Part shown: positions 23,438 to 41,684 of the stretch, one piece after another
Layout of the letters: every line of letters starts with the position of its first letter
How positions within the stretch are numbered: the stretch's first letter is position 1
Source of the DNA: Arachnia propionica
GTDB lineage: Bacteria; Actinomycetota; Actinomycetes; Propionibacteriales; Propionibacteriaceae
Length of the DNA stretch: 64,000 nucleotides
Reading direction: 5' to 3'
Assembly (NCBI RefSeq): GCF_037055325.1
Contig: NZ_CP146373.1
Location: forward strand, 2,604,001 to 2,668,000
Position numbers and translations under genes: made by a program
Notes under the pieces: model-generated
What the model saw: the letters and a program-made list of their open reading frames with translations, nothing else
Told to the model about the DNA's origin: nothing
The model's database searches: none

Positions 23438-24184
23438 TCACTTACCCGATAAACGATGCAGGCTGAGCAGCTTTTGTAGACCTGCTCCAACCAGTTCGCC
23501 CTGTTCCTGAGGAAAGTTGTGAAACCCTTGGAAGACCCGGGTGTGGAAACCGGCACCTGCATGCATCGCCCAGTGGGGGGCACACTCCAAGGGAGCCACC
23601 AAGTCTTGGTCAGCATGCCAAGCGTGCAGAGGAACGGTCAAGCGCGTCACATCAGTTGGTCGTGGCGAGTACCCGCAGACCAAACGGATGTCCCTCCTCA
23701 GGGTGGGGATGAACAGGGCCCCGGCGTGGCTGTCCACAAGATCTTGCGCAGCAGCTCCCATAGCCACCATCACATTCAGGAACGCCGCATCGTCCAGGGA
23801 CAGCAACGGCTGGAACAGCTGTGCGGTTCCTTGCATGGGCGGACGGCTGCCCATGACGACCACGGCACAAGGCATTCGATCTCCCGCGACCTGTCGAGCA
23901 GCCGCTGCCTCCACGGCTAGCAAACCCCCCAGGCTGTGTCCTGCCAGAACGTACGGTGTCTGAGGCAGCTGCTCAGACACAACCTGTGCGACCTGGCGTA
24001 GACGACCTCCCTCTTCAGGCGGAGGAACGGGACCGGAGCTTTCGAGATCACACAGGATGCGACGCACATTCGGCACCATGATGCGCGTAGCCCGATCAAG
24101 ATGAGGCCTCCAAGGGCGGACCACGCTGGCAGAGCCACCTGCCGGAGGCAGAGCAACCAAGGTATCTACGCTCAGCTCAGTCAT
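23438..24184 (-). CDS. Type II thioesterase (alpha/beta hydrolase)
   Basis: Removes stalled or mis-primed acyl groups from carrier proteins. 248 residues from the ATG at 24184. N-terminal VALPPAGGSASVVRPW (oxyanion region), nucleophile Ser at about 84 in AGHSLGG, acid in HADQDLVAP, catalytic His in FQGFHNF. This is the TE II/GrsT/RedJ form. The last gene of the long minus-strand operon; its start lies 8 bp inside the trpC-like gene. Confidence 0.9.
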   Translation of the reverse strand: MTELSVDTLVALPPAGGSASVVRPWRPHLDRATRIMVPNVRRILCDLESSGPVPPPEEGGRLRQVAQVVSEQLPQTPYVLAGHSLGGLLAVEAAAARQVAGDRMPCAVVVMGSRPPMQGTAQLFQPLLSLDDAAFLNVMVAMGAAAQDLVDSHAGALFIPTLRRDIRLVCGYSPRPTDVTRLTVPLHAWHADQDLVAPLECAPHWAMHAGAGFHTRVFQGFHNFPQEQGELVGAGLQKLLSLHRLSGK

Positions 24185-24884
24185 GAATTCCATTCCCTGC
24201 CCTGATGCTGCCAATATCAGACCATACGTCCAGTTGAACGGCGTCCAGAAGAGCAGTGCCAACTAAGAGACCGCGGTACCCCCAGGAAAGCACCTTCCGA
24301 GCATCTTCCGGGGTGTCAATGCCGCTGGCACTAACCGGGAGCGCACAGCCAGTTTCCAACACTGCGGACAAGAGACGTCGGCTGCGATCAAGATCAGCAG
24401 CCTCCCGCTCCTGGGTACGAATGTCCTTGTTGTTGACGGCCACGATTGATTGCTGAGCCACGTGACGGACAGCAGCGATCTCCTTAGCTGAGACCACCTC
24501 GATGAACGGCGTCAACCCACACTCTAAGGCCTCCCTAGCAAGTCGCAGCAAGGCTTCCGAGGGCAGTAGTTGGGCAGTAAGGAGAACAGCGTCCCCGCCG
24601 AGTTCAACTGTTTGCTCCAGCTGGGACCTTCTGGTGATGAAATCCTTGCGCAGGATGGGCAGATCAGTGCGGGAGCGAACATCGGCCACTAACTGTGGGG
24701 TCCCCCCGAACCACTTGCCGGTGACTACGGAGATGCAGGGCGCCTGAGCTTGCTCGTAGGCATTCACGATCTCACTCAAAGACCTCCCACCGAGAAGGTC
24801 GACACCATCGGCGCTCCGCGGCTTGACCTCCATTATCAGAGGAAGGGCCGCCTCATGCAGTGCATCATGGAAACGCGTGCTCAC
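24177..24884 (-). CDS. Diverged indole-3-glycerol-phosphate synthase homologue (TrpC-like)
   Basis: Canonical TrpC closes the pyrrole ring of CdRP with loss of CO2 and water to give indole-glycerol phosphate. 235 residues, shorter than usual: only about 17 residues precede the first strand, so the N-terminal helix extension is missing. By-eye alignment to Sulfolobus TrpC: Glu51/Lys53 kept (Glu19, Lys21 in MEVKPRS), Lys110 kept (Lys80 in LRKDFI), Glu159 kept (Glu129 in FIEV), Asn180 kept (VNNKDI), but Glu210 of ESGI is Ala186 (SASGI), and SPS is SAD. GTG start overlaps the trpF-like stop (GTGA). Retained chemistry with altered substrate pocket suggests a non-standard substrate. Confidence 0.85.
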   Translation of the reverse strand: MSTRFHDALHEAALPLIMEVKPRSADGVDLLGGRSLSEIVNAYEQAQAPCISVVTGKWFGGTPQLVADVRSRTDLPILRKDFITRRSQLEQTVELGGDAVLLTAQLLPSEALLRLAREALECGLTPFIEVVSAKEIAAVRHVAQQSIVAVNNKDIRTQEREAADLDRSRRLLSAVLETGCALPVSASGIDTPEDARKVLSWGYRGLLVGTALLDAVQLDVWSDIGSIRAGNGIHD

Positions 24885-25579
24885 GAAACCGCCGCCGGGT
24901 CTGTCATGGTCCAGGCCGCCACGAGGTCACTGACTCGATCCGAGCAAATCGTACCGTCAGAGCCACGGGCACCAGAATCCACGTCAATTCCACGGAACAA
25001 CGAGAGCGCCCGCACTTGCAGTTGCTCCGGGCTGGGCTTCCCATCTAGTCCCCCAGCCAGCAAGAAGGGATGGTCCGCCTGGAAGACAGCCGCATTGATG
25101 GTGGCGGGTTTCAATGCTTCCCCGGTGCTTCCCACGCGGTCATGTTGCATCGCGTCTAGGAGGAACATGTTCGCCCCCGCTCTTCGATGGGCTGCAGCGA
25201 ACCGCAAGTCCGGTGACGTGCCGTCTGGGTTAACGTGCAGAGCCTTGATTATCACCGCGCTGTCTCCAAGCATGTCGCGCAAAGCGCTGACCACCAGGGG
25301 GCCTTGAAATGCGTGCAACTGGATCCAGTCGATGTCCGCCGTTGAAGCGACTTTGGCGATCTCTGATGGATCGGCCGAAAATGTCACGAGCACCGGAATC
25401 AGGCCTTCCGACCTGGCCTGCCTCGCAAGACCCCCCATTTCCTTGGAAGTGAGTTCATGTTCGGCACCGGCCAGGTGCCACCAGAGTCCCACATGAGTGC
25501 CACCACCTTGAGCGATCGCGACAACTTCCGAGGACGTGGTGGCACCACAGACCTTCACCACGTTCTTCCCTTCGCTCAT
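24881..25579 (-). CDS. Diverged phosphoribosylanthranilate isomerase homologue (TrpF-like)
   Basis: Canonical TrpF performs the Amadori rearrangement of phosphoribosylanthranilate. 232 residues. The catalytic pair is present: Cys11 in KVCGAT and Asp142 in FLLDAM; IQLHA and LAGGL are also kept. The Arg-containing loop after the second strand (usual PxSxRxV) is replaced by HLAGAEHEL, and the phosphate-side DVSSGVE is DVDSGAR. So chemistry looks retained while substrate contacts changed. Start ATG overlaps the acyl-CoA dehydrogenase stop (ATGA). Part of a trp subset without trpE, trpG and trpB. Confidence 0.83.
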   Translation of the reverse strand: MSEGKNVVKVCGATTSSEVVAIAQGGGTHVGLWWHLAGAEHELTSKEMGGLARQARSEGLIPVLVTFSADPSEIAKVASTADIDWIQLHAFQGPLVVSALRDMLGDSAVIIKALHVNPDGTSPDLRFAAAHRRAGANMFLLDAMQHDRVGSTGEALKPATINAAVFQADHPFLLAGGLDGKPSPEQLQVRALSLFRGIDVDSGARGSDGTICSDRVSDLVAAWTMTDPAAVS

Positions 25580-26676: not shown

Positions 26677-26685
26677 CTCTCTTTC

Positions 26686-27060
26686 TCAGTATCCCGAGTA
26701 GCCGTCATTGCTGAGCACGTGAGCTTCCGTGCCCTGGATGGCAGGACAAAATACAGAAACGAGAATCAAGTCCTCATTCTCACCACCACACAGCACGTGA
26801 GCATCATGCTGGTCCAGCACGTAGACCGTTCCCGGGGTGATGTCATGCACGGTGCCGTCGGGTTCACGGACAGAGCCAGATCCCCCGATGCAGTAGCAAG
26901 CCTCTAGGTGATTCAGGTATTGCAATTTTGACTCGGTGCCGGCACGTACAACAGTGTGGGCCAGCGCGAACCCCATGGCGTCGGCGGCATTGATCAGCCG
27001 ATCACTGGTACCGGCTCCCCATTCGACTGTGTTGACCTCGGACCTGTGACGAGTGAACAT
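26686..27060 (-). CDS. Ectoine-synthase-like cupin (EctC family), stand-alone
   Basis: 124 residues, close to the 130 of EctC. Strong family pattern: MGFALAHTVVRAGTESKLQYLNHLEACYCI, PGTVYVLDQHDAH, SVFCPAIQGTEAH (each shown only in part). The three Fe(II) ligands known for EctC (Glu57, Tyr85, His93) correspond to Glu53, Tyr80 and His88. EctC makes ectoine by intramolecular condensation of N-acetyl-diaminobutyrate with loss of water. No ectA or ectB is present, so a cyclodehydration on a pathway intermediate is more likely than osmolyte synthesis. Ten bp upstream of the ACAD gene. Confidence 0.85.
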   Translation of the reverse strand: MFTRHRSEVNTVEWGAGTSDRLINAADAMGFALAHTVVRAGTESKLQYLNHLEACYCIGGSGSVREPDGTVHDITPGTVYVLDQHDAHVLCGGENEDLILVSVFCPAIQGTEAHVLSNDGYSGY

Positions 27061-27121
27061 GACTGTACTCCTTTCGGGTATGACCGATGTGTTATTTCAG
27101 TAGGTTTAGGTGAAGAAAGAA

Positions 27122-27937
27122 TTAGATGGGTGATGATGATCCAGTGCCTGTCAGCTCGGCCAGAAATTCACGGAAGCGAGGCAGAAGCCGGCCCTCAGCC
27201 AAGCCCTCCTCCACGGCCAGGACAGCGGCAGAGCCAATGATCGCGACATCCGCACCGGTCTGACCGACCTGTTCCACCTCACGGCGGCTGGAGACACCAA
27301 ATCCGATGGCTATCGGCGCGTCGCCGTGCCGCCGAATCTCTGTGACGGTGTCCGTCAACCCCGTCACATCCAGTTCGGCTGTACTTCCAGAACGCCCGAA
27401 TCGAGAGACCAGATAGACATAGGACGTGGCTTCTCGGGCGGCTTGGGCCAGCACTGAAGGGGAAGAATGCCTGTGATAGCAGGTGGTGACGATGGGCATC
27501 CCGACCGAGTGCGCGACTGAGATGGTGTTTGCTCGCTCCTTCGGCGGCATGCCGTGCAGAAGAATGCCGTCCGCCCCGGCGGCGGCAGCAGCAGCCAGCG
27601 TAGGTTCCAGCCCCCGCGGCCTGACGGTCCATGCCCAGTCGAGCAGAAGCACCAGTCGGGTCTGCCGAAGCTGAGGGCTGACCGTCCGCACGATACCGAG
27701 TGCGGATTCCAGGTCTGCACCGGCTTGCAGAGCACGGTTCGCAGAACGGCGGATAGTGGGCCCGTCGGTCGGGGAGTCTGGGAAAGGAACAGCCAATTCC
27801 ACAGCGGCAATGCCGAATTCGTCACATGCCAGCAGCAGATCGATCAGTTCCTCACCTGGCGGATCGCCTACATGAAGGAAGAGGATGATACCTACCTCAT
27901 CACCGGAAGCCCGGCGAGGTAGTGCCCGAGGTGTCAT
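27122..27937 (-). CDS. Tryptophan synthase alpha-chain homologue (TrpA-like), no TrpB partner
   Basis: Canonical TrpA cleaves indole-glycerol phosphate to indole and glyceraldehyde 3-phosphate. 271 residues from the ATG at 27937, preceded by GGAGGTG and overlapping the trpD-like stop (ATGA). Both catalytic acids are present: Glu47 (VELAVPFPD) and Asp58 (TDGP), canonical Glu49 and Asp60; the phosphate-binding GFGVSS and GSA motifs remain. Loop 6 reads SRFGRSG rather than SRxGVTG. With no trpB in the window, it may act as a free indole (or indole-analogue) lyase, like plant BX1/IGL. Confidence 0.88.
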   Translation of the reverse strand: MTPRALPRRASGDEVGIILFLHVGDPPGEELIDLLLACDEFGIAAVELAVPFPDSPTDGPTIRRSANRALQAGADLESALGIVRTVSPQLRQTRLVLLLDWAWTVRPRGLEPTLAAAAAAGADGILLHGMPPKERANTISVAHSVGMPIVTTCYHRHSSPSVLAQAAREATSYVYLVSRFGRSGSTAELDVTGLTDTVTEIRRHGDAPIAIGFGVSSRREVEQVGQTGADVAIIGSAAVLAVEEGLAEGRLLPRFREFLAELTGTGSSSPI

Positions 27938-28965
27938 TTTTTCACCTCCATCAGCTTGGGCCACGCGGAAGAGACGGACTCCAGAAGGACAACGGCGGAG
28001 CCGCTATGGATCACATCGATTGCCAAGGCGACCCCTTCCTTCAACGTGGCGCACTCGCCAGCAGCCATCAGACCCGCCCCTGCGTTCAGCGCTACGGTGT
28101 GGGTGGCCGTGTGGTTGAGCTGCCCTGTAAGAACCTCACATAGGTGGTGGAGCGCTGCCTCAGGTTGAGCGGCGGGCAGCAGGTCTTCCGGAGAACCGCC
28201 CGCAGGAACCACATCTCCCGGTTCGATGACTTTCGGGGCTGACCGCGGGGCACGGAGCCGAGAGGTGGTGAAGCTGATCAACTCATCTGCTCCGAAACGA
28301 CTCTCACAAATCCACAGGGAACGGCTTTCTTCGAGGTCGGCCCATGCCGCCGCACAGTCGAAGGGAAGACGTGACGAGACGCCAGTCAGCTGGCTGCTAA
28401 CCGGGACATCCGCTACGAATGGCCCCAACGAGTTGAAGAGCCGACCGAAGTGGCTGAGCCCCAAAGGCAGAATCGCCCGTGCCACCCGAACGAAAACAGA
28501 GGGATAGACTCCGATGCTCGCGAAGGAGAGCGGCCCCTTGCCTAGGTCGTCAAGGATTTCCCGGGCACTGTGCTGGAGATCCACCCCCAAGGTTCCTAGG
28601 AGGTCCAGGGCTCCCCTGCTCGAGGAATAGGACCTGGATCCGGTCTTGACGGTCGGGACTTTCAGGGCGGCGACCACCAGCGCGGCCGCCGTAGAGATGT
28701 TAAATGTGGAAGGTCCGCCTCCAGTGCCAACGATGTTCAGAGCTGTCGTCTGCTGCTTTTCAGTCAGACCTGGAGGAACCAAGCTACCGACCAGCGCTAC
28801 GAAGGTCTCGGGGGTGGGCATGCGGTTTGCCGTTGCTGCAAGCACAGCAGCAATCTCCACTCCCTCCACACGATGTTCTCGAACGTCATCCCAGAAGGCT
28901 TTCCAGGTCATCACGTCTGTGGGGGGCATGGCAAGAATCGATGCCACTCTCTCTGAGGCAGTCAC
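27934..28965 (-). CDS. Diverged anthranilate phosphoribosyltransferase homologue (TrpD-like)
   Basis: Canonical TrpD joins anthranilate and PRPP. 343 residues, usual length. The fold signature is clear (NIVGTGGGPSTFNIST; GADELISF), but positions that touch anthranilate differ: GTGGD lacks its Asp (80-84), the KHGNR motif is KTGSR (107-111; His to Thr, Asn to Ser), and HPAM is YPSV. PRPP-side residues (Lys107, Ser of NIST, Asp-Glu pair) are kept. This pattern points to phosphoribosylation of an acceptor other than anthranilate, or to a relaxed enzyme. Lies between the carrier protein and trpA-like genes. Confidence 0.87.
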   Translation of the reverse strand: MTASERVASILAMPPTDVMTWKAFWDDVREHRVEGVEIAAVLAATANRMPTPETFVALVGSLVPPGLTEKQQTTALNIVGTGGGPSTFNISTAAALVVAALKVPTVKTGSRSYSSSRGALDLLGTLGVDLQHSAREILDDLGKGPLSFASIGVYPSVFVRVARAILPLGLSHFGRLFNSLGPFVADVPVSSQLTGVSSRLPFDCAAAWADLEESRSLWICESRFGADELISFTTSRLRAPRSAPKVIEPGDVVPAGGSPEDLLPAAQPEAALHHLCEVLTGQLNHTATHTVALNAGAGLMAAGECATLKEGVALAIDVIHSGSAVVLLESVSSAWPKLMEVKK

Positions 28966-28976
28966 AGTTATCAGAC

Positions 28977-29240: not shown

Positions 29241-29251
29241 TTCATGCCCTT

Positions 29252-30769
29252 TCAAGGAAGGTTCTCCTGTGGGAGGACTTCATGGGTGATGTGAGGTTCA
29301 TGGCGGTCAGCGAAGATGGCTCTACGGTCCAACTTTCCCGTGCCGGTCCTGGCCAGCGCATGGGTAGTGAAGGTGAACTGATCTGGAACCGCGGCCGCAG
29401 GCAATCGCAGGGCGCAGTGTTCCCTGAGAGTGCTGATGAGCGGTGGGCTCGGCGCGGCTCGCGCTACCACCACGACATGTTGCCCACCGCGGTCTCCCTG
29501 CTGGACTTGTGCGGCAGCCTCCACGATCTCAGGGTGTTCGGTTACGGTCTTTTCGATCTCGTCCAAGTTCACCGCGATACCACGGACTTTGGCCTGCCGG
29601 TCAGTGCGACCGGAGAGCCGGAAAGTTCCTTCCTGGGTGCGGACAACGAGATCCCCGGTGCGGAACCATTCCCGGGGGCCGGTACCAGTGCGGGGGTCCG
29701 GAAGAAATCTGTCGACGTCCCGAGAAGGATCGGTGTATCCAGCGGCGCCGAAAGGGGAGCGCACCCATAGTTCGCCGGCGCTCTCACCGTCTACGATTCC
29801 ACCAGCCTCGTCTAGTACGAGCACCTCTACTCCCGGCAAAGGCTGTCCGATCGGCAGCGGGACGACATCGCTCGGATCCACAACATGCATAAAGGTGTCG
29901 TTGGATTCCGTGGAGCCGTAGATGTTTACGATCCGTGCCCGAGGAAAGAGCCGACGGACGGTGTGCAGGGTGGCTGCGTCCACCGTGTCCCCCGTTATGA
30001 TGACGTGCTCTACGCTCACGCAGGGTTCAGAGACCTCAGACATTCCCGTGTAGAACAGAGGCACGGCCTGGATGACGTGCGCACCGTGTTTGCGTACCTG
30101 ATTCAGCACCGAGGACCCCCGCAGAGATTCCAGCTGGGTTGGGACCACCACGGTGCCACCAAATGACAACGTGGCCCAGATGTCCAGCAAGGAGATGTCG
30201 AAACTGAACGGGGCCAGGGAGAGTGTCGTGCGGTTGGCACCCAGGCCGAACTCCTCAGCGGCCCAGTCCACAAACCGATCGACGCCCGAGGGTGTGAGAC
30301 GCACACCCTTTGGTGTCCCAGTCGAACCGGACGTCGTGAGAATCATAAAGGTGTCCGTCAGGACGCGAACAGAAGCGCCGGCCTTCTCCTGTATGACCTC
30401 CGTACCATCCAGCCACGCTGCCACCCCTGCATCCTGGGCAACGGCATCACGTATCCCGGAAGGCAAAGTGCGAGAGAGCACCAAGGGCGGATGCCCGCCG
30501 AATAGACAAGCGAGGATACCGGTCAGGGTAGTGATGTCGCGGTCAGCGAGCACTGCCACAGGTTGCCCCGGCTGGACCAGCGTATGCAAGCGCATAGCCT
30601 CCAAGAGGTCGAGGGCCTGTTCGGTAAGCTGCCGATAGGTGACCGTACCCGCCCGGTGGTGGACGGCTATCGTATCCGGAGACTTCTCGGCTTGCTCCAA
30701 GATTCGACGGACAGTGGCGGACAGTCCGCAGAGTGTCACTTCTGTACGAAACGTTTCTCTGTGCGTCAC
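29252..30769 (-). CDS. Stand-alone adenylation enzyme, probable L-prolyl-AMP ligase
   Basis: Activates an amino acid and loads it on the adjacent carrier protein. 505 residues from a GTG at 30769 overlapping the dehydratase stop (GTGA). P-loop TSGSTGTPKG (146-155), FSFDISLLDIW (188-198) with the Asp that binds the substrate amine, IYGSTESNDTF (283-293), YRTGD-like WFRTGDLV, and core Lys in RTGTGKLDRR near the end. The STESND context after YG is what I recall for prolyl-AMP ligases (RedM/PltF/CloN4). With carrier protein and ACAD this makes a pyrrolyl-S-PCP module (inference). Confidence 0.83.
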   Translation of the reverse strand: MTHRETFRTEVTLCGLSATVRRILEQAEKSPDTIAVHHRAGTVTYRQLTEQALDLLEAMRLHTLVQPGQPVAVLADRDITTLTGILACLFGGHPPLVLSRTLPSGIRDAVAQDAGVAAWLDGTEVIQEKAGASVRVLTDTFMILTTSGSTGTPKGVRLTPSGVDRFVDWAAEEFGLGANRTTLSLAPFSFDISLLDIWATLSFGGTVVVPTQLESLRGSSVLNQVRKHGAHVIQAVPLFYTGMSEVSEPCVSVEHVIITGDTVDAATLHTVRRLFPRARIVNIYGSTESNDTFMHVVDPSDVVPLPIGQPLPGVEVLVLDEAGGIVDGESAGELWVRSPFGAAGYTDPSRDVDRFLPDPRTGTGPREWFRTGDLVVRTQEGTFRLSGRTDRQAKVRGIAVNLDEIEKTVTEHPEIVEAAAQVQQGDRGGQHVVVVARAAPSPPLISTLREHCALRLPAAAVPDQFTFTTHALARTGTGKLDRRAIFADRHEPHITHEVLPQENLP

Positions 30770-31626
30770 GACCCAACCGCCAACATCACATGCCCGTTCT
30801 TCACGCTGGTTCCCAAAGGACCTGTCACTTTGAATGAAACCGCCCCTTGCCCCGGCGACCCCGTTATCTCGCACCGTGAAACCGCGTCCACGGGCGTCGC
30901 AGCGGAAAAGCGGGCGGCAAGTCGCGATACGCGCCTGATGTCGTTGTCGGCGAAGGCGTTCAACACGGTCTCGAACGACGCAGCGACAACTGCCATCCCA
31001 TGAACGATCGCCCCCTCGAAACCTGCTGCCCGCCCGGCCTTGTCATCGAGATGGATGGGATTGTCATCCCCGGAGCACCGAGCGTATTCGACCACGTCAG
31101 CGTGGGTGAAACGCAGACTGCTGGTCTGCTGCATCCCCTCCCGTACTGGGTGTATGCGAGCAACGGCCGGAGTGTCCTGGTTGATCTCGACAGCGCTGAT
31201 TTCTTCCGGGCTGACGCCACCCAGGCGGATCTGTGCCCGTAGAACCGCAGCCACCTCTGCATGTTCCGCGGTATCCAGTGTGCAAGTGACCATGACGTCA
31301 GCACCACCAACTGCCGCGCGGGCCATCGTGATATAGCTCGAACTGGTGTAGGCCGTGTCCACGCTGAGCTCTTGCCGCAACTCGATGTCCTGCGAAACAT
31401 GGACCAAGCTTGTGTGTCCAGGAAAATGGTCCGTCACTAGAGCCTGCACGCATGGATGGGTAATGATGAAGGCGTCCACAGGACCGGGGCGGTTTAGCCC
31501 AGCCCCCCGCTCCGGGAGGCCGGCACATCGACGTACGAGCCGACGCAGCGTTGCGGTACGTTGCGCGTCTAGAACGGCCGTGTTTCGAAAGGGCAATTGT
31601 AAGGACTCAGATTCTGCGATGTTCAC
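30766..31626 (-). CDS. MaoC-like double hot-dog dehydratase
   Basis: 286 residues from a GTG at 31626 that follows AAGGAG at good spacing. Two hot-dog halves: N-terminal FAS1/HadA-like half without catalytic residues, and C-terminal MaoC half with RFTHADVVEYARCSGDDNPIHLD (split here only by eye) and FEGAIVHGMAVVA, containing the catalytic Asp and His. Expected to dehydrate 3-hydroxyacyl thioesters during chain extension with the KS, KAS III and ketoreductase of the operon. No enoyl reductase is encoded, so chains stay unsaturated unless a housekeeping reductase helps. Confidence 0.82.
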   Translation of the reverse strand: MNIAESESLQLPFRNTAVLDAQRTATLRRLVRRCAGLPERGAGLNRPGPVDAFIITHPCVQALVTDHFPGHTSLVHVSQDIELRQELSVDTAYTSSSYITMARAAVGGADVMVTCTLDTAEHAEVAAVLRAQIRLGGVSPEEISAVEINQDTPAVARIHPVREGMQQTSSLRFTHADVVEYARCSGDDNPIHLDDKAGRAAGFEGAIVHGMAVVAASFETVLNAFADNDIRRVSRLAARFSAATPVDAVSRCEITGSPGQGAVSFKVTGPLGTSVKNGHVMLAVGS

Positions 31627-32932: not shown

Positions 32933-32933
32933 C

Positions 32934-34163: not shown

Positions 34164-34181
34164 GGAATCGGTCCCTCTAGT

Positions 34182-34859
34182 CTAAAAGCTGGATGATGAT
34201 GTGGGGTGGTCACTCAGGGGTACGTGGACGGCGAAGGCAGCGATGAAACCGCGCCCCATGACCCACTTGCCACGGAAGAGCCGTGCTCCGGAGGTCCAGC
34301 CGGGGAGCCGGACACTGAACCTCCCCCCTCTCAGCAGATGCGCTTCCCCGTCTGTCATGGGTAGCCACTGCTGATTGATTCGATACGAAGCTTTGTAGGC
34401 CGCCTCCTTGACGCAGAAATAGACGACTGGCCATGGGATGTTCGGCTCTCTGCACCGAAGCCGTTGCAGCCCCTGCTGCTCACGGTCGGTAGTGAAGGGG
34501 AGGCGCTCCCCATCAAGGTGACGAGCCGTCTCCACATCGATCCCAAAGTCGGCCGTGGTCGATCGGGCAACAGCTGCGCCTGCATAATTGCGGGTGTGGG
34601 TCAGACTCCCTTGGTATCCCATAGGAAACAGCGGGATACCGCCGGCACCCCGACCGATCACGGTCTCCTTCACTCCCCAGCGAGCAAGAGCTCGGCGCGC
34701 CTGATCACGGGCCACCAACGACTGCAACCTCTGGGGACCCTGGCTTTGCCCCACTAAATGCTGCTCGGCGGGCAGGCCAGCGATATCAGGAAAGGGGCCG
34801 TAGTGCTCTGCTACTTGGACCCAAGGTGGAACCACGGAAGCGAGGAGTTTGGTTGTCAT
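34182..34859 (-). CDS. 4'-phosphopantetheinyl transferase (EntD/Sfp type)
   Basis: Converts the two apo-carrier proteins of the cluster to holo form. 225 residues; GIDVE (about 105-109) and FCVKEAAYKA (about 150) are the two signature motifs, and the SLTHTRNYAGAAVA segment has the conserved His. Dedicated transferases like this accompany secondary-metabolite clusters (e.g. RedU). Eighteen bp separate it from the oxoamine synthase gene. Confidence 0.9.
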   Translation of the reverse strand: MTTKLLASVVPPWVQVAEHYGPFPDIAGLPAEQHLVGQSQGPQRLQSLVARDQARRALARWGVKETVIGRGAGGIPLFPMGYQGSLTHTRNYAGAAVARSTTADFGIDVETARHLDGERLPFTTDREQQGLQRLRCREPNIPWPVVYFCVKEAAYKASYRINQQWLPMTDGEAHLLRGGRFSVRLPGWTSGARLFRGKWVMGRGFIAAFAVHVPLSDHPTSSSSF

Positions 34860-34866
34860 GTCGGTC

Positions 34867-35640
34867 TTACACCACCGTCACTCCACCATCGACGCTGATG
34901 ACCTGACCGGTCATGTAGTCCACTTCTAAGAAGACCCCGATGGCGCGTGCAATTTCTTCAGCAGTGCCGAAGCGCTGCATGGGGCACTTACTTCGAATGG
35001 CCTCTTTAGCACTGTCCTGGAGGTTCTCCGTCATCCCTGTAATCATGAATCCGGGTGAGAGCGCGTTCACTGTGACACCCCGTTTGGCGCACTCCGCGGC
35101 CAACGTTCGGGTGAGCCCCATAACCCCGGCCTTCGATGCGGAATAGGCGGTCTGACCGCTGGTGGCAATAAACCCGGATGGTGACACGATATTCACGATC
35201 CGTCCCCAGCGACGTGCAAGCATCCCCGGAACGACTGCCCGCGACATGTGGAACGTGCCAATCAGATTTGTCTGGATCACTCGGGCCCAGTCGGCGGGAT
35301 CCTGCATGGCCATCAGAGCATCTAGCCGGATTCCGCTGTTGTTGACCAGAACGTCCACCGGACCAAGCGTCTGCTCCACCTGCGCAACCAGGGCCGTTGC
35401 CTGATCCCACTCTGCGATGTCACCGCCCACGACGCTGGAAGGATGATTCAGCATGGCGGCAGTCTCGTTGGCGGCGTCGAGAGAAGAGTTGTAATGAACT
35501 GCAACTGAGCAGCCACGCCGATCCAGTTCTACGGCCAAGGCGCGTCCGAAACCACCTGAGGCACCCGTCACAAGTGCGATTGGGACATCTGGGCGATGTC
35601 CGCGGCGCCGAGGCGCGTTACTGTCTCTGCTAGTGCTCAT
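34867..35640 (-). CDS. 3-ketoacyl-ACP reductase (FabG-like SDR)
   Basis: NADPH-dependent reduction of 3-ketoacyl thioesters. 257 residues with an N-terminal basic extension (about 18 residues), nucleotide motif TGASGGFG, NNSG, catalytic Ser in NIVSPSGF, Tyr/Lys in YSASK, and the FabG-type C terminus with TGQVISVDGG. Start overlaps the KAS III stop (ATGA). Confidence 0.92.
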   Translation of the reverse strand: MSTSRDSNAPRRRGHRPDVPIALVTGASGGFGRALAVELDRRGCSVAVHYNSSLDAANETAAMLNHPSSVVGGDIAEWDQATALVAQVEQTLGPVDVLVNNSGIRLDALMAMQDPADWARVIQTNLIGTFHMSRAVVPGMLARRWGRIVNIVSPSGFIATSGQTAYSASKAGVMGLTRTLAAECAKRGVTVNALSPGFMITGMTENLQDSAKEAIRSKCPMQRFGTAEEIARAIGVFLEVDYMTGQVISVDGGVTVV

Positions 35641-36656
35641 GCCATGGCCGTTTCTTGCTGGCCAGCTTCCTTCGCGCCGGCATCAACGGATCCACCCCAT
35701 CGAAGCAACATGGACCCCCAAGTCATTCCGGCACCGAAACCAGCAAGCAGTACGAGGTCTCCTTCATGAATGCGTCCTTCTGTCAGCGCTTCAGTGAGAG
35801 CAATGGGGATGGAAGCTGCAGCCGTGTTTCCGTAGCGCTCCAGGTTTGTGAAGACTTTCGAGCGATCCAATCCTGAATGTGTGGCGATAGAATTCACGAT
35901 CCGGATATTGGCCTGGTGGGGGATCATCAGGTCAACATCGGAGACGTCCACTCCGGCCTGAGCGAGCGTCTTGCGAAGGGTCGCCACGGTCAGACGTACA
36001 GCATTGAGATAGATCTCGTTGCCGTTGATCTTGGCATAGTGCAGTCCCTTTTCTACTGTTTCGACGCTGGCCGGTAGGCGACTTCCTCCGGCTTCCACCT
36101 TGAGGCTCCCGGTCCAGCGCCCTTCAGCGCCGAGATCCCAGCCCAGTATCCATTCGGAATCGTTTGGTTCGAGCAGCAGCGCACCCGCACCGTCCCCCAC
36201 AAGAATTCCGAGGTCCCGATCATTCGGATCTGCTGTCAACGAATGCGTGTCGGAGCCGATCACCAGTATCGGACGCGGGTCAATTCGAATGAGGGCTGCC
36301 GCGGTCACGAGAGCGTACATGAAACCAGCGCACTCAGCGTTTACGTCGTGAGCGCTACCCCTGATCCCCAACTCGTGTTGGACAAAAGCTGACGTAGCCG
36401 GGGAGGGCTGCTCGGGAGTGGCCGTTGCTACGAAGAGGTGTGCGACCTCCTCGGGCGCGCAGCCCGCACGCTCCAGCGCTCGGCGTCCAGCTTCCACCGC
36501 AAGCGAAGCGGTGGTCTGCCCCGGGCTAACCCAACGGCGTTCACGGATACCGCAGCGGCTCGTGATCCACTCCTCGTCCAGCCCGAATCCGGCGGCCAGC
36601 TCTGCACTGTGTATGGTGCGCTCAGGGACACTCATACCCCAGCCAGTGATGGACAT
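35637..36656 (-). CDS. Beta-ketoacyl-ACP synthase III (FabH/RedP-like)
   Basis: Starts chains from an acyl-CoA and malonyl-ACP. 339 residues from the ATG at 36656 (MSITGWGMSVPERTI); a GTG eight codons upstream is possible. Catalytic Cys109 (AECAGFMYAL), His in MIPHQANIRI, Asn in ERYGNTAAAS. Together with the first carrier protein, ketoreductase, dehydratase and KAS II it forms a dedicated small fatty-acid-type line resembling RedP/RedQ/RedR. Confidence 0.92.
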   Translation of the reverse strand: MSITGWGMSVPERTIHSAELAAGFGLDEEWITSRCGIRERRWVSPGQTTASLAVEAGRRALERAGCAPEEVAHLFVATATPEQPSPATSAFVQHELGIRGSAHDVNAECAGFMYALVTAAALIRIDPRPILVIGSDTHSLTADPNDRDLGILVGDGAGALLLEPNDSEWILGWDLGAEGRWTGSLKVEAGGSRLPASVETVEKGLHYAKINGNEIYLNAVRLTVATLRKTLAQAGVDVSDVDLMIPHQANIRIVNSIATHSGLDRSKVFTNLERYGNTAAASIPIALTEALTEGRIHEGDLVLLAGFGAGMTWGSMLLRWGGSVDAGAKEAGQQETAMA

Positions 36657-36666
36657 GCTCGGCACG

Positions 36667-36909
36667 TCAGGCCACCACACTTACGAGGCGGGTATGGAAA
36701 GTACGCAGAGTGGCCCGACCGTCCTCGTTCTCGAAAACTGCAGCATCCACGCCGCTGCCCGGGTTTTCAGTTTGGAACTTGTACAGCCACTCCATGAGAT
36801 CCATCGAGTCCACGTCTGACACTTCGGCCAATGGGGTGTCCGGATCGATCGCCGAAGCACCGGAGACCTCTTCCAGTTGACGGGCGAAGTCTTCAAGGGT
36901 CAAATTCAT
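36667..36909 (-). CDS. Acyl carrier protein, first gene of the main biosynthetic operon
   Basis: 80 residues from the ATG at 36909, nine bases after a GGAG (an in-frame TTG five codons upstream is less likely). Phosphopantetheine Ser35 in VDSMDLMEWL. Differs clearly from the second carrier protein at 29 kb (DSMD versus DSLG), so the two probably serve the acyl line and the prolyl line separately. First gene downstream of the divergent promoter region. Confidence 0.87.
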   Translation of the reverse strand: MNLTLEDFARQLEEVSGASAIDPDTPLAEVSDVDSMDLMEWLYKFQTENPGSGVDAAVFENEDGRATLRTFHTRLVSVVA

Positions 36910-37059
36910 TCTTCTTTTCTCCAATATGGGCGTCGGATTCGATGGCTGCCTGCCGTTTCATGCAGAGTGCGTAACCGGCAGCACGGGCAATAGTAAACAA
37001 GCAGGGCGCAACAGCGCTGCAAAGTCAATCGATCAACTTGATTCGGGGAATTCTAGTGC

Positions 37060-37078
37060 GCGTTGCGCCTGCGTTGCG
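37060..37078 (+). promoter_or_regulatory. SARP-type direct repeat in the divergent biosynthetic promoter
   Basis: GCGTTGCG occurs at 37060-37067 and again at 37071-37078, exactly 11 bp apart, i.e. one helical turn, as in sites of SARP regulators. On the other strand of the same 240-bp intergenic region (36910-37150) GTTGCGC, CTTGTTT and TTGCCCG follow at the same 11-bp step but match poorly. A SARP-type gene lies at 42.9-46.2 kb. Binding is inference. Confidence 0.55.
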
Positions 37079-37150
37079 ATGGTCCAGAAGAGTTGCAGCC
37101 GAAATCACTCAAGTCACGCCTCCTTACCCCAGGTCACGCAGGAGAAATTC

Positions 37151-38728
37151 ATGTCAAACGGCAGCGCCAAGATGCAGGATTCTGCAGCACAGTCGAGGGG
37201 ACACTCGACCCCCCAGCCCTCTGCAACCAGGATCGTCATCGTGGGGGCCGGATTCTCCGGCATCGCGGTTGGAATCCGGCTCCTTCGGTCCGGCCGGACG
37301 GACTTTGTCATCCTTGAGCGCGCTGACGAAGTGGGCGGCACTTGGCGGGACAACTCCTACCCTGGAGCCGGCTGCGACATTCCCTCACTTCTGTACTCTT
37401 TCTCTTTCGCGCAGAATCCTGGGTGGTCGAACACTTTTGGATCCCAGGACGAGATCTTGGACTACTTAAAGAGCACTGTGGATCGCTTCGGACTGCGGGA
37501 ACATATCCGCTTTAAAGAGGAGCTGAAGGATGCATCTTGGGACGACGAGACTCGCACTTGGACTATCGCCACGGACAGGGGGAAGCTGATCGCAGATATT
37601 CTAGTGCTGGCAACGGGATACCTCAGCGATCCCCAGCTGCCTGATGTCGCGGGAATCGAGGACTTCGGCGGGCCGATGTTCCACACGGCGCAGTGGGACC
37701 ACGAGGTGCAGCTCGAAGGACGCGATGTGGCTGTGGTGGGCACTGGGGCTTCGGCCATCCAGCTGGTTCCTGCTATTGCTGGAGAAGTCGGCCATCTCAC
37801 CCTCTACCAACGCACCCCGGCTTGGGTGAATGCAAAACCGGACACTCCAGTCACCGGACGTGAGCAACGTCGCCGTGCTGGCATCCCCGGCTATCAGCGA
37901 TTCCAGCGCAACATCAACAAATATGGACGTGAGATAATCGCACTGCTGATGTCCAAGCCCAAACTCATTCAGAAGACGCTCCAGCCGCAGATCGAATCCT
38001 ATCTGGCTGATCAGATCCCAGACGAGGACCTCCGACGCGATCTGACACCTGACTACGTAGTTGGATGCAAGCGGATCCTCTTCTCGAATGAGTACTATCC
38101 AGCCCTGCGCCGGGACAACGTGGAGGTGGTACCACACGCGGTAGACACCTTCCGACCCGGTATCGCTGTTGCGGGGGGAGTTGAGCGAAAGCATGACGTG
38201 GTTATCTTCGCTACGGGCTTCAGTGCAGTGGACCGAGCAGCAGCCCACCTGATCCGATCGCGTGGTAAGACCCTCTCTTCCGTATGGGCCCACTCCATGA
38301 GCGCCTATGTAGGAAGCACAGTGGCAGGATTTCCGAATCTGATCACCATGCTTGGCCCGAACACCGCATTGGGACACCACTCACAGACCGTCATGTTGGA
38401 GGCGCAGGCCGACTATCTGGTCGCCATGCTCGAATACATGGAGAAGAACGACTTGGACAGCGTTGAGGTACGTGAGGACAGTCAACGGGAGTACAACAAG
38501 TGGCTTGACATGAAGTTGGACGGAACGGTCTGGCAGACCGGCGGCTGTACCAGTTGGTACCAGGACGCCAGTGGCCACAATCCCATCACATACCCCACCT
38601 ATACCTGGACCTTCCGACGCCACCTCCGACGCTTCCGTCCCGAGCACTACCGGGCAACCACCCCTGAGATCGGGGCACGCGGCATTGATGTTCCAAGACT
38701 GCTCACCGTCGCTGCAGAGGATCGCTAA
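37151..38728 (+). CDS. Baeyer-Villiger-type flavin monooxygenase
   Basis: FAD/NADPH enzyme inserting oxygen next to a ketone or hydroxylating a substrate. 525 residues from the ATG at 37151, five bases after AGGAGAA. FAD motif GAGFSG (32-37), second Rossmann GTGASA (197-202), and between them the BVMO fingerprint F-x-G-x-x-x-H-x-x-x-W-D (FGGPMFHTAQWD, 172-183). Resembles the 4-hydroxyacetophenone/cyclohexanone monooxygenase group. First gene of an operon divergent from the main one; an alpha-amino ketone from the oxoamine synthase is a conceivable substrate. Confidence 0.88.
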   Translation: MSNGSAKMQDSAAQSRGHSTPQPSATRIVIVGAGFSGIAVGIRLLRSGRTDFVILERADEVGGTWRDNSYPGAGCDIPSLLYSFSFAQNPGWSNTFGSQDEILDYLKSTVDRFGLREHIRFKEELKDASWDDETRTWTIATDRGKLIADILVLATGYLSDPQLPDVAGIEDFGGPMFHTAQWDHEVQLEGRDVAVVGTGASAIQLVPAIAGEVGHLTLYQRTPAWVNAKPDTPVTGREQRRRAGIPGYQRFQRNINKYGREIIALLMSKPKLIQKTLQPQIESYLADQIPDEDLRRDLTPDYVVGCKRILFSNEYYPALRRDNVEVVPHAVDTFRPGIAVAGGVERKHDVVIFATGFSAVDRAAAHLIRSRGKTLSSVWAHSMSAYVGSTVAGFPNLITMLGPNTALGHHSQTVMLEAQADYLVAMLEYMEKNDLDSVEVREDSQREYNKWLDMKLDGTVWQTGGCTSWYQDASGHNPITYPTYTWTFRRHLRRFRPEHYRATTPEIGARGIDVPRLLTVAAEDR

Positions 38729-38793
38729 GCCACACCCGGATACCGAAAAACCCACTATTTCCCCACCAGCACTGCCCATAGTAAGGATTCCCC

Positions 38794-40326
38794 GTGAGCC
38801 GAATTACTGACGCCCCCTCCAACTTGCCCCAAATCTCTCGACGTCTTCTTTTCCGCACAGCCGCCACTACGGTGGTCGGCTATTCATTGACAAATGGCTG
38901 GATATCGGAGGCCGAGGCCGATGATTCCGAGACGTCGGAGGCCGAGGCAGAGCGTCTATTTCGGCGACTTCCTCGCCTGCAGGGAACTGTTACCCGAGAG
39001 GCTGCCGGTTTTATCACCGATTTCGGTCGTGAGATCAGCGCCCAGCCAATAGCTGTGCTGCACCCCGAGGGTACTGAGGATATCGTCGCTATGTCCCGTT
39101 TCTGCACGCTTCACGGCATCCCTATGGCGATGAACGGTCAGTCTGGTGAGACCGACAAGCATGAGTCGCACTCCAACTACGGGCAGGCGCTCACCAAGGG
39201 AGGCCTTCAAATCAACGCCCGCAAACTCGCCGAAGTCCGCAAGCTGACCGAGGGCACGGCCGTCGTGGGAGCCGGTACCACATGGGCTGAGCTCGTCGAA
39301 GCAGCACTGGATACCGGACAGACGGTTGCCACCCTTCCTGACTATCTCAACCTCTCCATCGGAGGAACTGTTTCCGTGGGCGGCGTGGGAGGCAACGTCC
39401 AGCGGTTCGGGCTCTGTTCTGACCTGGTGCAGGAAATCGAGATCGTCGCACCGACAGGAATTGTATACAGGGCCAGTCGTCAGCAGAACGCATCACTGTT
39501 TAAGGCGGCTCTCGGCGGGGCTGGCCAATATGGTGTCATCACAGAGGTAACGCTGAACCTTGTTCCGGCGCAGGAGATGGCCACAATCATCAGCCTGTAT
39601 TATTCGTCGTCAGCGGACTACCTACGTGATCAGCGCACGCTTCTTAAAGTAAAAGACCTGCAGCATCACACAGGAGAGTTCATCCGTGTGGAAGATGACA
39701 CGGAATGGAACTTCAAAATCGACTTGGGCGTCTATCATCCATCGGGGCAGCCTCGCGACCTAGAGGACATACTTTCCGAGCTGAGCGACGACCGTGACCG
39801 ACGAACCACAGTTACCATGCCATATCACGACTGGGCATTCCGTGTCACGCCTACCATGCAGTCTCTCTCCGAGTCCGGACATCTAGAGATGAAGAAACCA
39901 TGGGCCAGTTTCCTGATCCCCGGCGACCGGGTGCAAGAGTTCGTGGACTGGGTCTCGCCGCAGATGTCTCAGCAGGATCTCGGTGCCGGTTTGTGTCTTC
40001 TCTCCCCGCTGACTCCTGAATCAATCGCCACGGAGATGTTCATGGTGCCGAGCTCCTCAGACGGTCTGGCGTTTTTCTTTGACCTGTTGGCTTTCCCAGA
40101 CCCTGACACGCCCGACGTGGATGGGATGTTCGAGCGGAACCGACGCTTCTACGACAAAGTAACCAGCTTGGGAGGTAAGCGCTATATCATCGGTGCCATA
40201 CCTGGGATGACGAAGTCAGACTGGGTCAATCACTATGGGTCATCACGGTACAGTTGGCTCTCCGTGTTCAAACGGATCTACGATCCACGCGGCGTGCTTA
40301 CGCCTGGGCAGAGGATCTTCTCATGA
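38794..40326 (+). CDS. FAD-linked (VAO/cytokinin-dehydrogenase-like) oxidase with likely Tat signal
   Basis: 510 residues from a GTG at 38794 after AAGGA. Residues 15-21 (SRRLLFR) followed by TAATTVVGYSLTN look like a twin-arginine signal, and a charged linker with Glu/Asp precedes the fold. FAD_binding_4 domain about 75-250 (GGTVSVGGVGGNVQRFG, LGGAGQYGVITEV), then a substrate domain with a CKX/BBE-like end (RIYDPRGVLTPGQRIF). It may oxidise an amine or alcohol at or outside the membrane. Its stop overlaps the start of the next gene (ATGA). Confidence 0.85.
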   Translation: MSRITDAPSNLPQISRRLLFRTAATTVVGYSLTNGWISEAEADDSETSEAEAERLFRRLPRLQGTVTREAAGFITDFGREISAQPIAVLHPEGTEDIVAMSRFCTLHGIPMAMNGQSGETDKHESHSNYGQALTKGGLQINARKLAEVRKLTEGTAVVGAGTTWAELVEAALDTGQTVATLPDYLNLSIGGTVSVGGVGGNVQRFGLCSDLVQEIEIVAPTGIVYRASRQQNASLFKAALGGAGQYGVITEVTLNLVPAQEMATIISLYYSSSADYLRDQRTLLKVKDLQHHTGEFIRVEDDTEWNFKIDLGVYHPSGQPRDLEDILSELSDDRDRRTTVTMPYHDWAFRVTPTMQSLSESGHLEMKKPWASFLIPGDRVQEFVDWVSPQMSQQDLGAGLCLLSPLTPESIATEMFMVPSSSDGLAFFFDLLAFPDPDTPDVDGMFERNRRFYDKVTSLGGKRYIIGAIPGMTKSDWVNHYGSSRYSWLSVFKRIYDPRGVLTPGQRIFS

Positions 40327-41684
40327 GTCAGCTAATCGAGATCACAGACTCGGTCCGACTCCCAGCCGACCGTGAGGTGGTATGGGATTTGCTGACGGCA
40401 GAACTGGCCGGGGCTGGCGCTTGGTGGAACCGGACCAACACCTTTGCCGCAGACAGAGATCCGGGGACACTGGGCAGCAGAATCCGCTGGACGATTGCGC
40501 CGAACGGGATCAACAAGCCCGGACCACGGTTCCGATTCACATCAGTCACCGTTGAAGCAGTTCGTCCATCTCGGCTGGAACTATCCTTTCGGGGTGATTT
40601 TGAGGGCAAGAGTGTATTCCGACTGGAAGACGTAGAGGAAGACACTCGCCTGTCCTTGGAATTTAGTGCAGAATGCCGCGGATGGGCCGGTGTGTTCTCT
40701 CGGCTGGTTGACATGTCCGCTAGTCGTTCCCGGAGCACTCGGGACGCTTTCAGACGACTTCGCGAGCTGTTTTTGCAAGTTCCTGATCAAGGAACAACCT
40801 CCCCAGAATTCCGACTGTGCGGCACCACCTCTGCTGCGCGTACGGCGATGGACCTGCGCACCGCGTACGGCGATGTCTTGCGCATGTGGCACTGGCAGCC
40901 GGTCGATGAACCTCCCGCCAGAGCCACGGCGGTCCTGACACATGGTTGGGGATCATCTTCACGAGCGTTCGACAGCACGGTGGAGAAGCTCCTGCTGCAA
41001 GGGATGGACGTGGTTACTCTCGACTGGCCGGGCCATGGCGCCAGTGTCCTTCATCCGACAGGGCAACTGAGTCTGGAACGCTTGGCAGCCGGCCTCTGCG
41101 GGGTGCTTGACCTCATTGAGGTGAGGCCCGTCATTCTAGTAGGACACTCGGGCGCGGCTCTCGTCGGGACACTCGCTGCGGCGCAGGCCTCCACAATCGA
41201 TGGCTTCGTGTTCCTTTCCGCTGCACTCCAGGACCCGGGAGCCACCGCCGCAATGCTCAGGGTCCAAGGAGGTCGGCTACTCGACATCGTCCTGAGCAGC
41301 CCAGTGCTCTCCGAAATAGTGCTTTCGCGGATCTTGGGCCCATCCCTGCCGACTGCCACTCGTGCTCTCACAGCCGCTCGTCTACGAGCCGTTGCGCCTG
41401 CTGTGCGTCGGTCATACTTCGAAGCAAGTCGTAATGTGGACCTTACAGATTTCGGACGCCGGGTCAGTGTACCTACTTTGGTGATGACCGGGTCGGAGGA
41501 CATGATGTTCCCGATTCATTCGGCCCGTACCACAGCACTCACCTTTCCACATGGACGCTTCAGGTTGCTGACGGGGCGTGGACATGCACTTCCCGAGGAG
41601 GCACCGGACGAGATTGCGCGCGCGGTGCTGGAGTTGGCTCCCAGGGTCGGGGATGGAACGTTCGGGAGCTTCCTACACCAGTAG
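40323..41684 (+). CDS. SRPBCC (polyketide-cyclase-like) domain fused to alpha/beta hydrolase
   Basis: 453 residues from the ATG at 40323. Residues 1-155 have the SRPBCC/Bet v1 pattern (VRLPADREVVWDLLTAEL; repeated strands; long C-terminal helix). Residues about 185-445 are an alpha/beta hydrolase: VLTHGWGSSSRAFDS, LDWPGHGAS, nucleophile Ser in VGHSGAAL, acid in GSEDMMFP, His in GRGHALPEEAP. I know of no named family with this pair. A binding/cyclising domain coupled to a hydrolase or lyase could fold and release an intermediate (inference). Last gene of the three-gene divergent operon. Confidence 0.82.
   Translation: MSQLIEITDSVRLPADREVVWDLLTAELAGAGAWWNRTNTFAADRDPGTLGSRIRWTIAPNGINKPGPRFRFTSVTVEAVRPSRLELSFRGDFEGKSVFRLEDVEEDTRLSLEFSAECRGWAGVFSRLVDMSASRSRSTRDAFRRLRELFLQVPDQGTTSPEFRLCGTTSAARTAMDLRTAYGDVLRMWHWQPVDEPPARATAVLTHGWGSSSRAFDSTVEKLLLQGMDVVTLDWPGHGASVLHPTGQLSLERLAAGLCGVLDLIEVRPVILVGHSGAALVGTLAAAQASTIDGFVFLSAALQDPGATAAMLRVQGGRLLDIVLSSPVLSEIVLSRILGPSLPTATRALTAARLRAVAPAVRRSYFEASRNVDLTDFGRRVSVPTLVMTGSEDMMFPIHSARTTALTFPHGRFRLLTGRGHALPEEAPDEIARAVLELAPRVGDGTFGSFLHQ

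Follow-up and report, generated by a model that had tools for sequence, protein, structure and literature searches.

Which product can be made by a cluster in which homologues of tryptophan biosynthesis enzymes and of an ectoine synthase are combined with a carrier-protein module and a small fatty-acid line? Such a cluster is located in a stretch of 64,000 nucleotides of the Arachnia propionica genome, which is referred to as the window. Sixteen open reading frames (ORFs) follow each other head to tail on the minus strand from position 36924 down to 23438, many with overlapping ends, in the order acyl carrier protein (ACP), FabH, FabG, 4'-phosphopantetheinyl transferase (PPTase), alpha-oxoamine synthase (AONS), FabF, MaoC, adenylation enzyme (A), peptidyl carrier protein (PCP), TrpD, TrpA, EctC, acyl-CoA-dehydrogenase-family enzyme (ACAD), TrpF, TrpC and thioesterase; three divergent ORFs are encoded on the plus strand at 36926-41684. 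In Pfam scans, which covered 30 proteins of the window, 15/16 minus-strand genes and all three divergent ones scored above the gathering threshold. A preliminary description made from the sequence alone had reported 16 coupled and three divergent genes of these families, and the ORFs and the Pfam and NCBIfam matches bear this out, as they do its view of a coherent, apparently intact cluster that does not make a standard prodiginine and whose FabH, ACP, FabF, AONS, PPTase and thioesterase resemble the Red proteins. We propose that the cluster is a pyrrolopyrrole cluster of the kosinostatin type fused to a small fatty-acid/alpha-oxoamine line and probably acquired horizontally, a reading that we hold with good confidence.

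This reading starts from an eight-gene core. When the genomes of 84,980 species were scanned for two TrpC-like peptide patterns, 84 relatives carrying at least one of them came up, and the best 80 loci (named L with a number; some genomes give two) were kept. Gene presence was determined by tblastn with the window proteins and 10 kb of flank. Core matches were found for TrpC in 80, TrpF in 76, ACAD in 73, EctC and TrpD in 70 each, TrpA and PCP in 69 each and A in 67 loci. All eight genes were present in 62/80 loci, and in 59/80 they were arranged on one strand in the order A-PCP-TrpD-TrpA-EctC-ACAD-TrpF-TrpC (L071, L096 and L097 have the full set in rearranged form), which excludes chance. Kosinostatin and isoquinocycline B carry a pyrrolopyrrole, and the kstB and kstC genes are described to make the pyrrole and to join it with phosphoribosyl pyrophosphate (PRPP) (PMC7918784). 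The same source gives the kosinostatin cluster as almost complete in Nocardiopsis alkaliphila and perhaps complete in Actinokineospora bangkokensis. Indeed, N. alkaliphila (L074) has the whole core in the order of the window and A. bangkokensis (L107) has seven core genes, the PCP not being found by tblastn. For one strain of Lentzea albidocapillata subsp. violacea, the subspecies of L080, a kosinostatin-like cluster is also named (PMC9120177). Since the same core is present in organisms listed as kosinostatin-like, it is of a known, kosinostatin-type kind, a likeness drawn through L074 and L107 and not through the kst cluster (JN038178) itself.

As in kosinostatin/quinocycline biosynthesis, the window has a stand-alone A enzyme and a PCP, and in both cases a precursor would be loaded onto the PCP, a pyrrole formed and the ring built with PRPP. 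Unlike the kosinostatin cluster, it has no type II ketosynthase/chain-length-factor pair and no clear branched-octose set among the 30 proteins scanned, and has AONS, FabF, MaoC, FabH, FabG, ACP and flavoenzymes instead. One NAD-epimerase-like protein is encoded at 15127-16095. In the 80 loci, non-core matches were found for FabF in 44, MaoC in 43, AONS in 38, SARP in 17, FabG in 10, FabH in five, ACP in four and the flavin monooxygenase (FMO) in three, the counts for outlying genes being minima, as these often lie beyond the 10-kb flank. AONS, FabF and MaoC occur together in 38/80 loci, with AONS homologues at 60-70% identity; FabH homologues at 70-72% were found in L119, L031, L037 and L092, and FabG homologues at 63-65% in the first three of these. 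The fullest match among the loci examined is on a plasmid of Streptomyces sp. NBC_00726 (FMO 51%, FabH 72%, FabG 63%, AONS 65%), which also carries two anthrone-oxygenase-like genes. Two of the 44 FabF matches (L107 and L108) are at 29-38%; L107 has a ketosynthase-like ORF of 423 aa, and 166 aa encoded at the edge of L108 are 79% alike to it. The statement that no described pathway has this combination thus fails for the core, with L074 and L107 being kosinostatin-like, and stands for the core joined to AONS, FabF, MaoC and FabH. What is new is the coupling of the core to AONS, FabF and MaoC in the window and 38/80 loci, with FabH, FabG, ACP and flavoenzymes added in the fullest ones. Neither a product nor a treatment of this AONS-type cluster was found in the literature searched, which excludes most subscription journals.

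Which precursor is loaded onto the PCP? The preliminary description had seen a pyrrolyl-carrier module, and one explanation would be that proline is converted to pyrrolyl-PCP and anthranilate to indole via TrpD, TrpF, TrpC and TrpA, giving a pyrrole/indole alkaloid, with EctC catalysing an unrelated cyclisation. The ACAD speaks for this: its best PDB match is the prolyl-ACP dehydrogenase 4irn, and its nearest models are RedW and PigA, albeit with scores (297 and 284 bits) below the cut-offs of 650 and 500. The A enzyme speaks against it. Nine pocket positions were taken from an alignment of 78 rows (two of 73 family rows were too short and were dropped), and family counts refer to 75 rows, the window included and L030, L123 and L124 left out. 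Gln is found at position 278 in 74, Thr at 301 in 71, Asp at 330 in 74 and Ser at 331 in 73 of these rows, and the window enzyme reads DILQITIDT. The A enzymes of L124 (DLFYLALVC) and L030 (DLFYIAWVC), loci in which no EctC was found, have Tyr at 278 and Val at 330, and that of L123, likewise a locus without EctC, reads DLFFLCLVA. The codes of L030 and L124 agree with the prolyl code of PltF and are taken to be prolyl. Because the family pocket is unlike these two, the A module is probably not a prolyl loader, and the L-prolyl code of the prodiginine module is absent from the window enzyme.

The module is tied to EctC instead. Among the 67 loci in which A was matched, 64 also carry EctC, and two of the remaining three (L085 and L093) are truncated; the link persists without Trp genes. 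The same A-code class was found in kosinostatin-like loci (L074 and, from L. albidocapillata, L080 and L104) and in L024, L120 and L122, which have no Trp genes. Burkholderia stagnalis carries an A-PCP-EctC-ACAD cassette followed by genes for a transglutaminase-like protein, a pseudouridine-5'-phosphate glycosidase and a HAD hydrolase; a nucleoside deaminase gene lies farther along, and this is how a showdomycin-like cluster would be expected to look. For showdomycin it is proposed that L-glutamine is cyclised by SdmE and then activated, loaded onto a PCP and oxidised (PMC8724604), and the A-PCP-EctC-ACAD set without Trp genes fits this proposal. We infer that SdmE is EctC-like, helped by two genome papers in which showdomycin-like regions are classed as 'ectoine' (PMC9120177, PMC8782336). 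With its genes for A, PCP, EctC and a dehydrogenase, the window may share with the showdomycin front end (SdmE, SdmC, SdmD) the glutamine cyclisation and the oxidation to an aminopyrrole proposed there; the YeiN-like C-glycosynthase and the HAD phosphatase were not seen among the 30 proteins scanned, and the window would add ribose carbons by Trp-like enzymes.

The window EctC scored 131.6 bits with PRK13290, just over the cut-off of 128. EctC residues of L129-L132 were left out owing to a shifted pairwise alignment. In the window family, W21, R25, T40, Y52, H55, E57, Y84, H92 and F106 are kept in 76/76 rows. Like ectoine synthase, it is thus a cupin with the Fe ligands E57, Y84 and H92 and with W21, R25, T40, Y52 and F106; unlike ectoine synthase, its family lacks Asn38, it is linked to carrier-protein enzymes, and no EctA or EctB was present among the proteins scanned. 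Asn38 is found in 0/76 rows (Thr 67, Cys 6, Ala 3, the window being among the last), and Cys104 is Ser in the window. In PlEctC, Asn38 contacts the substrate carboxylate (PMC6344544), and ectoine synthase is described to convert L-glutamine to 5-amino-3,4-dihydro-2H-pyrrole-2-carboxylate (ADPC) in a side reaction (PMC6344544, PMC4795551, PMC5924519), for which PMC4795551 gives two glutamine molecules. Cys at position 38 also occurs in EctC proteins of Burkholderia, Vibrio, S. globosus and Rhizobium gallicum. In the latter, EctC with Cys38 is encoded on a plasmid (L125, 6001-6384) with no annotated A, PCP or ACAD within 6 kb, and an EctC match at E 1e-15 was found on 82 plasmid records, 19 of them from Rhizobium. 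Solitary EctC proteins made up 145/582 in one survey, which leaves their function unresolved (PMC5924519).

The kosinostatin pyrrole has been explained otherwise. A table in PMC7918784, citing Ma et al. 2013, lists kstB genes that 'load nicotinic acid and convert it to a pyrrole', and by analogy the window module would load nicotinic acid, contract it to a pyrrole and then build the pyrrolopyrrole. The proposed deformylase gene kstB7 is, however, given as absent from the cluster of a second producer (PMC7918784). Furthermore, one A-code class spans kosinostatin-like loci and Trp-less loci for which glutamine is the proposed substrate, and EctC keeps its cyclodehydratase residues. Nicotinic acid as precursor does not fit the EctC and A-code evidence, and we regard this explanation as unlikely. 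Labelling data reportedly lie behind it, and its authors are said to have compared kosinostatin ring building with the tryptophan pathway.

We next turn to the Trp-like enzymes. TrpD, TrpF and TrpC scored below the curated NCBIfam cut-offs (best 138.6, 68 and 134.6 bits), and TrpA passed. In TrpD the GTGG of the PRPP/Mg motif is kept in 71/72 and D223/E224 in 72/72 rows, the following D83 being Gly in 72/72, and H107 and R164, which we take to bind anthranilate, were found in 0/72 rows and are kept in the canonical TrpD of the host and in four PDB chains (two near-identical). These alignment patterns suggest that the acceptor pocket of TrpD is altered and the anthranilate contacts are lost. 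In TrpF the predicted phosphoribosylanthranilate isomerase fold and the catalytic Cys7 and Asp126 are present; R36, presumably carboxylate-binding, is Arg in 9/77 ungapped rows, and the window has no Arg in that loop. Of the six catalytic residues of TrpC, E51, K53, K110, E159 and N180 are kept in 82/82 rows and E210 in none; E49 and D60 of TrpA, likewise catalytic, are kept in 70/70. The cluster thus shares with the tryptophan pathway the TrpD, TrpF, TrpC and TrpA families and most catalytic residues, but no TrpE, TrpG or TrpB was present among the cluster proteins scanned. An intact TrpA without TrpB is as expected for free indole and favours the pyrrole/indole alkaloid, yet the loss of the TrpD anthranilate-binding residues in 72/72 rows makes indole, or the indole-type product first suggested, an unlikely product. 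Together with the A code and the linkage of EctC to A, PCP and ACAD, this leaves the pyrrole/indole alkaloid very improbable.

From the genes, their order and conservation, the residue patterns and the predicted TrpF fold, all of them observed, we infer every chemical step of the following route for the preferred pyrrolopyrrole reading. EctC would cyclise glutamine (or a glutaminyl group), A would load the cyclised glutamine onto the PCP and the RedW/PigA-like dehydrogenase would aromatise it to 5-aminopyrrole-2-carboxyl-S-PCP. The amino group of the aminopyrrole would be phosphoribosylated by TrpD with PRPP, TrpF would catalyse the Amadori step and TrpC would form the second pyrrole ring by closure at the adjacent unsubstituted carbon; this would not require decarboxylation, which fits the lost carboxylate contacts. 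TrpA would then split off the glycerol-phosphate chain in the form of glyceraldehyde 3-phosphate, and a dihydropyrrolo[2,3-b]pyrrole with an activated carboxyl group would result. We consider this ring-making half highly probable.

Several observations weigh against this route. Nicotinic acid and not glutamine is the pyrrole source proposed for kosinostatin (Ma et al. 2013, via PMC7918784). The window A code has Thr at 331, as does just one other, the alignment is gapped around TrpD R164, some Arg is present in the TrpF R36 loop in 25/78 rows, so that this contact is not lost everywhere, and TrpC E210 is found in 0/82 rows (81 Ala, 1 Pro). Of the 18/80 loci without the full core, eight are short of sequence on one side; the other ten (L031, L033, L046, L070, L083, L095, L098, L101, L102 and L107) have 10 kb on both sides and lack core members by tblastn. 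Among them, L046, L101 and L102 show the TrpC homologue alone, the 10 kb to its left and right being free of further core matches, and in L033 EctC is the single core gene without a match.

How is the acyl line joined to the ring? FabH, ACP, FabG, FabF and MaoC appear to form an acyl-chain line, which would build or extend the chain, and the catalytic residues are intact in the window PCP, ACP, both ketosynthases, AONS, FabG, thioesterase and MaoC; no enoyl reductase was found among the 30 proteins scanned. AONS should join an acyl thioester to an amino acid to give an alpha-aminoketone, as in prodiginine-type routes. Tailoring is the likely role of FMO, the FAD-linked oxidase, the SRPBCC-hydrolase and the anthrone-oxygenase-like protein, and the flavoenzymes together with the last would then oxidise the product. 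For the junction, we suggest tentatively, at somewhat less than an even chance, that the pyrrolopyrrole carbonyl is extended in an acyl- or alkylpyrrole-type manner. The window has the FabH, ACP, FabF, AONS, PCP, dehydrogenase, PPTase and thioesterase types in common with the prodiginine (Red/Pig) clusters, but no RedH/PigC ligase, methyltransferase or Rieske protein was seen among the proteins scanned. Within the pyrrolopyrrole reading, the FabH line could also extend the pyrrolopyrrole carbonyl itself instead of building an alkyl chain; with a second pyrrole made by AONS, the product would be a conjugated pigment of prodiginine-like type. RedN-type logic is in favour of this, and in L022, L043 and L110 FabH, FabG and ACP lie beside the core with no AONS of the window type adjoining, so they may act on the shared heterocycle; FabF, on the other hand, is plain (426 bits) and not PigJ-like (just 82 bits with the PigJ model). 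We consider the conjugated pigment possible, though rather doubtful.

The cluster probably extends beyond 23438-41684 (Table 1), because counterparts of the genes at 22724-23350, 19447-20640 and 42879-46190 are present in some related loci. Homologues of the AraC regulator at 19447-20640 adjoin AONS in Arthrobacter (L061) and Kineococcus (L063), and a 42% match was found in G133, a genome of the same family as the host. The second AraC protein never outscored the first at the same place in its seven loci. The anthrone-oxygenase-like gene gave tblastn matches in 9/80 loci (27-32%), with two copies in L119 (26-29%), and a thioesterase follows TrpC in 3/80 loci, the nearest kin of the window locus. 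The ACP gave no Pfam match at E 0.001; it is 38-49% alike to carrier proteins adjoining FabH elsewhere (48-49% in L037 and L119). FMO homologues at 49-52% were found in L037, L092 and L119. A 399-aa ORF without Pfam match (41698-42897, plus strand) follows directly after the SRPBCC-hydrolase gene.

Table 1 Features of the cluster and its surroundings in the window
Coordinates	Strand	Feature	Basis
19447-20640	-	AraC-family regulator with Cupin_6 domain, probable cluster regulator	Pfam; homologue in 7/80 loci, 41-49% identity
22724-23350	+	anthrone-oxygenase-like (DUF1772) membrane protein, probable tailoring oxygenase	PF08592 49.9 bits (cut-off 27.3)
23438-24262	-	thioesterase	PF00975 74.9 bits; TTG start, true start may be later
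24177-24884	-	TrpC-like, putative ring-closing synthase	PF00218 (IGPS) 135.8 bits
24881-25579	-	TrpF-like, putative Amadori isomerase	PRAI (Pfam) 49.2 bits
25576-26676	-	ACAD, putative pyrroline-PCP dehydrogenase	RedW/PigA models, PDB 4irn
26686-27060	-	EctC-like cyclodehydratase, predicted glutamine (or glutaminyl) cyclase	PF06339 (Ectoine_synth) 107.3 bits
27122-27964	-	TrpA-like, putative retro-aldolase	PF00290 (Trp_syntA) 142.7 bits; TIGR00262 140.6 bits, over cut-off
27934-28965	-	TrpD-like phosphoribosyltransferase, predicted altered acceptor pocket	PF00591 (Glycos_transf_3) 113.3 bits
28977-29255	-	PCP	PF00550 28.2 bits; phosphopantetheine Ser in 75/75 rows
29252-30874	-	stand-alone A enzyme, code D-I-L-Q-I-T-I-D-T	PF00501 173.6 bits
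30766-31677	-	MaoC-type dehydratase	PF01575 64.5 bits; motif Asp 43/44, His 44/44
31709-33004	-	FabF-like ketosynthase	fabF model 426 bits (cut-off 494); PRK07314 416 bits, over cut-off
32934-34163	-	AONS (BioF-like PLP enzyme)	bioF model 383 bits (cut-off 426)
34182-34859	-	PPTase	PF17837 and PF01648 over cut-off
34867-35640	-	FabG-like ketoreductase	TIGR01830 237 bits (cut-off 298)
35637-36680	-	FabH-like ketosynthase III	PRK09352 324 bits, over cut-off
36667-36924	-	ACP, 85 aa	DSM motif; Ser in 6/6 rows
36926-38728	+	Baeyer-Villiger-type FMO	PF13738/PF00743; PtlE model 193.7 bits (cut-off 1100); start may be later
38794-40326	+	FAD-linked oxidase (cytokinin-dehydrogenase-like)	PF09265, PF01565; 36% in G133
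40254-41684	+	SRPBCC (polyketide-cyclase-like) and alpha/beta hydrolase fusion	PF10604, PF12697; matches in 2/80 loci (L037, L092)
42879-46190	-	SARP/BTAD-AAA regulator, probable pathway activator	PF03704 52.4 bits; SARP-type match in 17/80 loci
46327-47400	-	second AraC/Cupin_6 regulator, membership uncertain	Pfam; tblastn match in 7/80 loci

Where does the cluster come from? The host genome encodes separate, stronger TrpD, TrpC and TrpA family matches elsewhere (255.3, 262.1 and 215.7 bits), so the cluster is an addition to the organism; a second EctC was not found in the host genome, the cluster copy being the single match. EctC was matched at E 1e-8 in six of the 198 family genomes searched: the host's own, G133 (52%) and four others (35-38%). 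A search of 391 genomes of the same order with the dehydrogenase returned G133 and four genomes of another family. The latter have A-PCP-EctC-ACAD only, with no Trp matches in the stretches examined. In G133, A, PCP, TrpD, TrpA, EctC, ACAD, TrpF and, further on, TrpC run in one direction. The G133 loci L022 and L023 represent a third architecture, core plus FabH, FabG, ACP, FAD oxidase and a second PCP; neither FabF nor MaoC was matched there, and AONS was matched at just 35%, about 5 kb beyond the A gene. In a sample spread over the phylum, the TrpC alignment at E 1e-45 matched the genome of the window alone among 396; the module is rare in this even sample, not absent.

A quick tree of 71 rows (the four proteins were all of sufficient length in 70 of 81 loci) placed the window locus with AONS-type loci, two from Arthrobacter and one from Kineococcus (SH-aLRT 100), and neither with G133 of its own family nor with L074 and L107; the program warns of long branches, the window locus among them. 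This grouping suggests that the cluster was acquired horizontally. The G+C content of 14001-50000 is 59.6%, compared to 65.9% and 65.7% on the flanks, and this island is larger than the cluster itself. Between the AraC regulator and the cluster lies a fragment of an IS630-like transposase (21186-21674, minus strand; DDE_3 25.5 bits, below cut-off), and at the edge of the low-G+C stretch a HATPase_c_4/RecG-C-like protein is encoded (49939-51255, minus strand), which matched Aga_SIR2-PNTD defence models weakly (32.6 bits in a padloc scan that gave weak matches only). The transposase fragment, the low G+C and the sporadic distribution could point to a decayed or silent island without product. The cluster ORFs, however, are of usual length, their catalytic residues are intact apart from the losses noted above and kin elsewhere carry the same gene set, and apart from the transposase fragment the genes seen have no sign of decay. 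A decayed or silent island is quite improbable. A reduced variant is present on a plasmid of Aliiroseovarius crassostreae (L121): EctC, two ketosynthases, ACAD, A, PCP, TrpD, a TrpC-like protein and a transglutaminase, with no TrpF or TrpA match within the 17 kb examined; the dehydrogenase is present on eight plasmid records of this genus.

In sum, we suggest that the AONS-type clusters, which are spread over several actinobacterial families, make an undescribed class of compounds, acyl- or alkylpyrrole-extended dihydropyrrolo[2,3-b]pyrroles ('prodiginine with a bicyclic amidine head'), from glutamine and PRPP via a second-generation Trp pathway on a carrier-bound aminopyrrole, that the kosinostatin pyrrolopyrrole is likewise derived from glutamine and not from nicotinate and that Thr or Cys in place of Asn at position 38 identifies many 'orphan' ectoine synthases as glutamine cyclases, a proposal that as a whole we give almost, but not quite, an even chance. 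It offers concrete, testable chemistry for a cluster that seemed an unexplained mixture. The tryptophan pathway would have been recruited by removal of its anthranilate contacts to build a different bicycle, and the A code together with EctC position 38 may serve as a diagnostic for solitary EctC proteins. As side results, the 'orphan' EctC proteins would obtain a testable role and nicotinate as the kosinostatin precursor is challenged. Clusters of this family, for which no product was found, occur in Streptomyces, Arthrobacter, Kineococcus and elsewhere.

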